From positions 62,001 to 126,000 of the forward strand of contig CAMEYM010000002.1 in assembly GCA_945947575.1 (NCBI GenBank): a DNA stretch of 64,000 nucleotides, written 5' to 3'. The stretch's first letter is position 1. Each line of letters opens with the position of its first letter. The stretch comes from Rhizobium sp. Q54. Lineage in GTDB: Bacteria > Pseudomonadota > Alphaproteobacteria > UBA2966 > CAIVPW01. Below are positions 646 to 2,655 of the stretch, in pieces. Made by a program: the position numbers and the translations under genes. Below the pieces are notes generated by a model. It ran no database searches, was not told where the DNA came from, and saw only the letters and a list, made by a program, of their open reading frames with translations.

Positions 646-669
646 CTAGAGCTGCGCCTCGATCGGCAG
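646..669. repeat. Left copy of an imperfect 24-bp direct repeat flanking the HNH/HEPN cassette
   Basis: This segment matches 2632-2655 at 22 of 24 positions in the same orientation. The shared core is AGCTGCGCCTCGAT followed, after one mismatch, by GGCAG. The right copy is the 3' end (stop codon plus the codons for LPIEAQL) of the phospholipase D gene. The left copy is a detached duplicate of that gene end, now between parC and the HNH gene. Such a pair is expected when an element integrates at the end of a gene and rebuilds it. Confidence 0.75.
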
Positions 670-703
670 GAACTGCCGTTTGCATGGCCGTCCACCGTCC
701 GAC

Positions 704-1552
704 TCATCGACTTGTCGCGACGGGCCAAGGAAAGAGCTTTTCCACCTTGGAACCCCACGGATCGTCCGTCGCGACTGAAGTCGACGGACGAAGCGCGAGC
801 GACGTCCAGAGTTGCGGCGTGACCCGCGTCCAACTGGGGTTTTCAAACGGATGGTCAGGCGGCTGACGCTCGAACCGAACAAGGTGCCATTCCTTTGACA
901 TCCCTCCGACGTCGTAGTGTTCAATCCAAACAACGCGTTCGGCCGGGAGTTGAAAGCGTTCGCAAACTTGAAAGCAAACGCTCTCTATTGAGTTTGTGAT
1001 GGATTGTCCCGGGTTGCCCTCAGTCTGCACCAAGACGATCGCGATGCGGCCATCGGGAAGGTCAATCCTTTCGACGAGGCAGACGCCGTCGCAGCCGTTA
1101 CTCGCCTTGTACGCAAAGAAGTCTGGCTGATTCGCGACCTGCCACAGAGGGTTCCGCCACGGCTCCGCTGTAAAGCCTAGCTGTGTGGGAAACCTCCCAC
1201 GAAGTCGGTCGAAAACCGACGTCTCCGGCATGGGCCGCAACTCGACCGCACCCGAAGTTTCCACGAAGGCGTCATCGGGGTACCGGCGATACAACCGATC
1301 ACGATGCGCTCGAACCTCCGCGGAAATGAGCCCTTTCGATTGGCTCGTCGTTCCGTCGAGTTCATCGTGATGATCGAGACAAAGGTAGACGAGGTTGTCG
1401 AAGCGATCGTCGCCGGAATCACCGTTCAAGTGCGCAACTTGCCCCTTCCGGGGTTCGTCGATGTCGAGTAGCCCGAAACATAGGCAGCACCTTCGACGCG
1501 ACGCAAAAGCTACGCGAGCGGCAAGTCGTTCGTTCAGGTGCTTTCGTCTCAT
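704..1552 (-). CDS. HNH endonuclease-like protein with an unknown C-terminal domain
   Basis: The 282-residue product has an HNH-type metal finger at its N-terminus: Cys22-x2-Cys25, His41 in AHLNG, Asn53 in NLVYLC, Cys58 and His61/His62 in CLDHHDELD. This is the layout of HNH nucleases that cut DNA or RNA using a divalent metal. Residues from about 110 to 282 match no domain I recognise; they are mixed alpha/beta with no membrane segment. The gene lies 15 bp after the HEPN/zinc-ribbon gene on the same strand, so the two are probably co-transcribed. Base composition is visibly more AT-rich than the neighbouring core genes, and the pair is bracketed by direct repeats, both signs of transfer. Nuclease activity is inferred from the motif. 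A role as toxin or anti-phage effector is only a hypothesis. Confidence 0.72.
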   Translation of the reverse strand: MRRKHLNERLAARVAFASRRRCCLCFGLLDIDEPRKGQVAHLNGDSGDDRFDNLVYLCLDHHDELDGTTSQSKGLISAEVRAHRDRLYRRYPDDAFVETSGAVELRPMPETSVFDRLRGRFPTQLGFTAEPWRNPLWQVANQPDFFAYKASNGCDGVCLVERIDLPDGRIAIVLVQTEGNPGQSITNSIESVCFQVCERFQLPAERVVWIEHYDVGGMSKEWHLVRFERQPPDHPFENPSWTRVTPQLWTSLALRPSTSVATDDPWGSKVEKLFPWPVATSR

Positions 1553-1567
1553 CCAAAGTCCGCGTAA

Positions 1568-2560
1568 CTAGTCGTCTTTTGACATCTTGTAGCCGCAGTA
1601 CGAGCAGAGGTCGCGGTTTTCGACCCACGCGTCGTTCGGCGTTAGGGGCGTTCCGCATGACGCGCACCGCTCCTCCAGTGCGAACCCACAGGCGGCGCAA
1701 GCGTTCTCGTCGTCGTATTGAAGATACGTCTCGCGCGCGCATTCGGGGCAGGCGTCCAGCGGCGATTCGCCTCCGTCCTTCGCCGACCTGTAGACCTCAT
1801 CGTCGAGATGAAGCTGCAACGCGTGTTCAATGGCAGCGCCAGCTTCCATCGACGCGCCACACGCTCGGCAAACACAGTCCACGCCTTCTTGAGCGGTATT
1901 CGTTGGATCAGCCTGAGCAACCAAGTCGGAGTGGCACTCTGTGCAATTGAAGGTCGCCGCGGCCAAGGTCGAAGAATCCCATTCGACAGGGGCGAACGTG
2001 GCCCGACATGCGGCAAGCTCCCGTTCGTATGTTTCCTTCACCTCAAGCATCGCGCCCCAGGCGTCACCCAACATCAGCGCGGGATTTTCGTCGGCGAGGG
2101 CAAAGAGATCAGAGACCACCGGGAACGCCTTTGCTATCGCCTCGCGGACCACCTGGGGACTCGCGTTGGTGTAGTAGTATTCGATTTCGTTGCGGATTCG
2201 GTTCAAGTCCTTGATTGCCGCCTTGTCGAGGTTCAACCCAAAGTCGCGGAAGCGTTCCGCTAGTTTCTCGAAATCAACGGTACGGTCGCCTGCAGGAACA
2301 AAGGTGACGCCGCCATTCCCATCGAGCTTTGGCTTGTACGACGCACCAATCACATCCATCGGATCGGCTTCCGGGGCCGCCCGAATAAGAACCGCCTTCG
2401 CAAGTAGCAGCAATCCTGCGTAAAAGTTCCGAACCGCAGCAAGGGCGCGGCGCGGATCGTTAGAACCGTAGTCCTCAACGCCGACCTGTATTGATTCAAC
2501 GGCGTTCTTGAGAAGTGGCTCCTCTGCAGATTCATCTAGTGGGGCCGACATTTCGTCCAC
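1568..2560 (-). CDS. HEPN-like domain protein with C-terminal zinc ribbons
   Basis: The first ~180 residues of this 330-residue protein are helical and contain the segment LNRIRNEIEYYYT (about 119-131). Its position and surroundings resemble the R-x4-6-H motif of HEPN RNases, but the final His position is occupied by Tyr128, so the active site may be degenerate. The last ~125 residues carry paired Cys-x2-Cys knuckles at 206/209 with 231/234, 271/274 with 288/291, and 299/302 with 319/322, consistent with three zinc ribbons. It is the first gene of a two-gene unit with the HNH gene. The start at 2560 (MDEMSAP) or the Met three codons later are both possible. The sequence resembles a family of hypothetical proteins I have seen in scattered bacteria, usually without a function. 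The HEPN assignment is an inference from motif shape. Confidence 0.65.
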   Translation of the reverse strand: MDEMSAPLDESAEEPLLKNAVESIQVGVEDYGSNDPRRALAAVRNFYAGLLLLAKAVLIRAAPEADPMDVIGASYKPKLDGNGGVTFVPAGDRTVDFEKLAERFRDFGLNLDKAAIKDLNRIRNEIEYYYTNASPQVVREAIAKAFPVVSDLFALADENPALMLGDAWGAMLEVKETYERELAACRATFAPVEWDSSTLAAATFNCTECHSDLVAQADPTNTAQEGVDCVCRACGASMEAGAAIEHALQLHLDDEVYRSAKDGGESPLDACPECARETYLQYDDENACAACGFALEERCASCGTPLTPNDAWVENRDLCSYCGYKMSKDD

Positions 2561-2631
2561 CTTGGTGTCCCCGAGCCGATAGGCATTTTTCGCTCCGCCC
2601 AGGTTTCGTGAGAAGGACTCTTGGCACCCAC

Positions 2632-2655
2632 CTAAAGCTGCGCCTCGATGGGCAG
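2632..2655. repeat. Right copy of the imperfect 24-bp direct repeat
   Basis: This is the 3' end of the phospholipase D gene, including its TAG stop on the minus strand. It matches 646-669 at 22 of 24 positions, the mismatches being at repeat positions 4 and 19. Together the two copies bracket the HNH/HEPN cassette, about 2.0 kb repeat to repeat. Confidence 0.75.

Follow-up and report, generated by a model that had tools for sequence, protein, structure and literature searches.

A pair of minus-strand genes lies within positions 646-2655 of the window, that is, the whole 64,000-nucleotide stretch of Rhizobium sp. Q54 DNA analysed here (contig CAMEYM010000002.1). The first gene (gene 1) encodes a HEPN-like protein with zinc ribbons and the second (gene 2), which follows after a gap of 15 bp, an HNH protein. 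The outer edges of this interval coincide exactly with the two copies of a 24-bp direct repeat (22/24 identical). The right copy forms the 3′ terminus of a phospholipase gene and reads LPIEAQL-stop, and the left copy, with two synonymous differences from it, still does so; no match of at least 19/24 to either copy was found elsewhere in the window. In G002, a sister species from the same genus, the phospholipase gene (82% identical) abuts the topoisomerase gene (92%), the repeat being present once and the insert missing, and the 45 bp that separate both genes at this uninterrupted junction are the same spacing as in the window. The insert therefore comprises 1,986 bp. The comparison is direct evidence either that the insert was acquired at the gene end once the lineage had separated from that of G002 or that G002 lost it precisely, and the two marks of an integrative element, a repeat duplicating a gene 3′ end and an empty site, are both present, the latter in one relative. 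No integrase or recombinase of its own was seen in the insert, which is filled by its two genes; elsewhere in the genome there are seven integrase-type matches, some of them presumably housekeeping.

The composition of the insert also sets it apart from its surroundings. Its G+C content (0.587) is lower than in any of 249 segments of equal size taken stepwise along the window (mean 0.684, sd 0.021), and its genes have a G+C at third codon positions of 0.64-0.67 versus 0.85-0.94 in seven neighbouring genes. An earlier model reading made from the letters alone (the sequence-only reading) had described a co-oriented, AT-rich two-gene cassette splitting a core locus beside parC. Orientation, gap and composition were borne out by the open reading frames and the segment comparison, and the insertion itself by G002. 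On the other hand, the phospholipase gene does not count as core in the strict sense, having no match in G004, and the left neighbour is the A subunit of DNA gyrase or topoisomerase IV (NCBIfam PRK05561, 2e-101), ParC and GyrA being inseparable on the 200 residues inside the window. The right neighbour is phospholipase-D/cardiolipin-synthase-like, cardiolipin synthase models staying below cut-off. The roughly 1.5 kb fetched next to the phospholipase gene of G001 and of G003 did not show the topoisomerase gene. An insert of 2 kb this clean, which duplicates a gene end and brings no integrase, makes the locus a concrete case in which to ask how very small defence cassettes move.

Table 1. Features of the insert and its flanks (window coordinates)
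Feature	Position	Strand	Basis
DNA gyrase/topoisomerase IV A-subunit gene, 5′ part, runs off window	1..600	-	NCBIfam PRK05561; 92% identical at the same place in G002
Distal copy of 24-bp repeat	646..669	.	Sequence comparison with phospholipase gene end
Inserted unit, 1,986 bp, repeat start to repeat start	646..2631	.	Single copy and no insert in G002
HNH protein, 282 aa	704..1552	-	Open reading frame and profile searches
C-terminal sensor-like domain, residues 110-282 (core 146-230), motif GNPGxSITN...E...EHY	707..1225	-	Profile matches
HNH domain, residues 4-98	1259..1543	-	Closest solved fold: CBASS Cap5 HNH
HEPN-zinc-ribbon protein (PDC-S64)	1568..2551, ATG (or 2560, GTG start of the sequence-only reading)	-	PADLOC model match
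Three zinc ribbons: C206/209/231/234, C271/274/288/291, C299/302/319/322	1595..1945	-	Conserved Cys; Pfam DZR below cut-off
HEPN-like domain, residues 9-160 counted from GTG	2081..2536	-	
Motif R123-N-E-I-E-Y128-Y-Y130, His expected at 128	2171..2194	-	Alignment of relatives
Proximal repeat copy, native phospholipase 3′ end	2632..2655	.	Repeat comparison
Phospholipase-D/cardiolipin-synthase-like gene, 3′ end is the insertion site	2632..4170	-	PLDc_2 3e-36

Farther along the window, between recO and era (5152-5804), an ordinary FitAB/VapBC-type unit is found, with a FitA-like antitoxin (PF22513, 2.8e-7) and a PIN toxin (PF01850, 1.1e-10).

The two encoded proteins

In gene 2, the HNH finger comprises CxxC at residues 22-25, H41, N53, C58, H61 and H62, and the domain is of the Cap5 type, its fold being nearer to Cap5 than to the other HNH chains listed. 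The roughly 170 residues behind the finger, which the sequence-only reading could not place, have no Pfam match; the Pfam search returned no DUF4263 in this protein either. This C-terminal domain does match the SduA model PDLC00403, at positions 10-94 of 360 only, and the same match is seen in 17 of 20 members of the family, which numbers 390 proteins at E 1e-3 (the window's own included); no actual Shedu protein carrying that domain was retrieved. No SAVED model stands among the defence-model matches of the window protein, and SAVED_HNH matches weakly in one of 20 relatives (4.8e-4). The C-terminal domain also occurs alone, as a standalone 141-aa plasmid protein inside a conjugative transfer cluster (L132:5896-6321) with relatives on plasmids of Caballeronia, Burkholderia vietnamiensis G4 and Sulfuricystis.

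The product of gene 1 matches the PADLOC phage defence candidate PDC-S64 over its full length (models PDLC05058/05059, 4.5e-38; protein 11-330 of 330, profile 5-305 of 305), which is the outcome of the defence-profile search that the sequence-only reading had proposed; the name PDC-S64 was not found in the literature searched. The ATG at 2551 is preferred as the start because AAGGTGG precedes it. The protein has the helical HEPN fold, with no Pfam HEPN or DUF4145 match, and twelve conserved cysteines that we grouped into three ribbons, in agreement with the number first proposed. The replacement of the motif histidine was also correctly perceived in that reading: from the active site R-x4-6-H the window copy keeps the arginine and has Tyr128 in a column where 117 of 119 aligned letters (window included) are His. 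The RNase fold was then taken as possibly inactivated, which fits only this copy and protein P0161, whereas the family keeps R-x4-H. Two residues farther, the column of Tyr130 holds Tyr in 87 of 119 aligned letters and other residues in many distant loci.

Outside the window, a DUF3800 gene directly follows the zinc-family gene in two loci (L117:7968-9718, where it is PDC-M04A by profile, and L116:849-2629, where its start is similar), and the two genes may form a unit in other bacteria. On one plasmid, the zinc gene is immediately preceded by a DUF2971 gene, and on another such a gene takes the same place before an HNH-half relative close to Qat genes (L104:7339-7989, L108:5142-5966).

Linkage and distribution of the two families

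If both proteins worked as a dedicated pair, their families should show some conserved linkage. Within the DNA fetched, the zinc family was found near none of 66 HNH-profile loci and the HNH family near none of 23 zinc loci (7 from plasmids, 6 from genomes and 10 from IMG/VR). At least 2 kb were available on both sides in 37 of the 66 and 16 of the 23; full two-domain HNH proteins occupy nine of the 66, none with the zinc family in the fetched DNA. The neighbourhood comparison proposed in the sequence-only reading thus gave no conserved adjacency, and with no linkage in these 89 other loci the pair is, as far as the data go, particular to this insertion.

No neighbour of the HNH family recurs within 4 kb in more than five loci. 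In five loci (L051, L061, L069, L082 and L093), uvrB is found no more than 4 kb from a relative that has just the HNH half in common (uvrB profile-confirmed for L069), a placement that is possibly stable, and five further loci, distinct from these, have an ABC-ATPase-like frame within 4 kb. Other HNH relatives adjoin metabolic or housekeeping genes. Among the relatives at large, some have AbiE, TIR, Shedu and 'abortive infection' genes in their vicinity. In Marinobacter (L040:2967-8625), an HNH relative is flanked by a weakly DUF4365-like protein on one side and a PD-T7-3-like protein on the other; another HNH protein is close by, and the whole is an apparent defence cluster.

Both insert genes are absent from the seven other genomes of the family searched, G002 included. 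In a sample of the class at 1e-15, the zinc family appeared in 3 and the HNH family in 2 of 385 genomes, the window's own being the only one in common and the second HNH-family match spanning the HNH half only; in a phylum sample, 5 of 299 genomes carried the zinc family. A phage-borne origin was considered and rejected, with no match at 1e-5 for either protein in 50,697 phage records. In IMG/VR, neither the HNH profile nor that of the C-terminal domain had a confirmed locus, while in one of the ten zinc loci the gene is immediately preceded by a Mu F-like gene. Exact repeats within 1.5 kb are at most 14 bases long around the relatives compared (10 HNH and 23 zinc loci), a test that does not single out the window because its own repeat also reaches 14, as do L031 and L037; the window repeat stands out by its 22/24 identity in register with a gene end and by the empty site.

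Functional readings of the cassette

We lean towards the view that the two nuclease-type genes are separate anti-phage effectors rather than toxin and antitoxin, the HNH protein being a single-gene immune nuclease. The steps that we infer from sequence for both proteins would be these. The Shedu-sensor-like domain of gene 2 may keep the Cap5-like HNH domain inactive until an infection cue, either invading nucleic acid or a phage product, is sensed, upon which the HNH domain would cut DNA. Members of the gene 1 family would be HEPN RNases whose zinc ribbons bind target RNA or ribonucleoprotein; the window copy, with Tyr for His, has likely lost some or all of its catalytic activity, and that of the cassette would then probably rest on the HNH protein. 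As no recombinase was seen inside the insert, one supplied from elsewhere may have joined the cassette to the gene end in a site-specific manner. A wider proposal we hold more tentatively: the HNH protein could found a family, so far undescribed, of immune nucleases that work as single genes and have a Shedu-type sensor re-wired to a Cap5-type cutter, sensors and nucleases being swapped freely between families, and it would move in a minimal gene-end cassette through a recombinase that the cassette does not carry. If the immune-nuclease reading is right, an uncharacterised family would become a testable immune nuclease, and an unnamed domain would tie together three architectures (HNH fusion, Shedu-like front end and standalone plasmid protein), with a sensor that could be studied apart from its nuclease.

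The sequence-only reading had favoured a toxin-antitoxin or anti-phage unit, in which a zinc protein deprived of its catalytic histidine binds and restrains a toxic HNH nuclease. Its anti-phage side holds as defence-type cargo, given PDC-S64, the Cap5-like HNH domain and the relatives near defence genes; the dedicated pair does not. Restraint of the nuclease by its neighbour would suit the shared strand, the 15-bp gap with the zinc gene first, the tyrosine at the catalytic position and the presence of both genes in one inserted unit, and a hint that may weigh against separate effectors is that the entries of P0072 (HNH) and P0162 (zinc), from different sources, give the same length for the longest contig, 10,276 bases. 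However, such a pair needs the linkage that the loci lack, and R-x4-H is retained nearly everywhere in the zinc family, which is therefore unlike an antitoxin family. We regard this appealing yet unsupported reading, corrected by the analysis of linkage, as rather unlikely; the HEPN protein may still have become a local partner of the nuclease once its histidine was gone. A related scheme would place gene 1 with the HepT-type RNases (RX4HXY), a nucleotidyltransferase modifying Tyr130. With neither a nucleotidyltransferase gene nor, more specifically, an MNT antitoxin with GSX10DXD adjoining gene 1, whose neighbours are the HNH and phospholipase genes, and with a tyrosine that is not universal in its column, it is very improbable.

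The remaining alternatives dispense with a present defence function. That the pair is decaying cargo, the remnant of a larger island with its integrase deleted and gene 1 inactivated, seems unlikely: it would account for the missing recombinase, the replaced histidine and the failure to find a promoter-like site (a weak point, since 0.5 are expected by chance), but both frames are open over their full length, near that of their families, and the repeats persist at both ends with about 93% coding sequence between them. A role outside defence, whether as a selfish HNH gene or as a nuclease for DNA repair that is accompanied by a zinc protein for RNA processing, would be in keeping with the relatives within 4 kb of uvrB and those next to metabolic or housekeeping genes. 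Nevertheless, the relatives near uvrB match the HNH half only, the HNH fold lies closer to Cap5 than to the other chains listed, and gene 1 has its PDC-S64 match and plasmid contexts, which makes this role quite improbable.

Comparison with known systems

Both HEPN-zinc-ribbon fusions and HNH immune effectors are kinds already known; the architecture joining HNH to a Shedu front end was not found in the literature searched with the terms tried. Gene 1 resembles PDC-S64 over residues 11-330, the window copy differing by the tyrosine in its motif. Among the HEPN-zinc-ribbon fusions listed (DUF4145, Npun_R5629 and EC042_2821; PMC3710099), it finds a similar HEPN-like fold, a family motif R-x4-H with a polar residue after the arginine and the fusion to a zinc ribbon, but it lacks a Pfam HEPN/DUF4145 match, has three tandem ribbons and has lost the histidine. 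With the class I HepT/MntA type VII toxin-antitoxin (PMC7641770) it shares the fold and the R-x4-[H]-x-Y spacing, and it differs in its zinc ribbons and, again, in the replaced histidine.

Regarding gene 2, CBASS Cap5 (HNH-SAVED; PMC8568899) likewise joins an HNH domain at the N-terminus, with its zinc finger, to a sensor domain of its own behind it; no SAVED model matches the window protein. Moreover, no SMODS-type CD-NTase (PF18144, the only CD-NTase model used, whose control was positive in 3 of 14) was matched in the window's genome, which is 95.7% complete. The likeness to Shedu/SduA (PMC12137116) resides in the C-terminal domain, which resembles the start of the SduA model, whereas the nuclease is HNH instead of DUF4263 (PD-(D/E)xK) and the order of nuclease and sensor is reversed.
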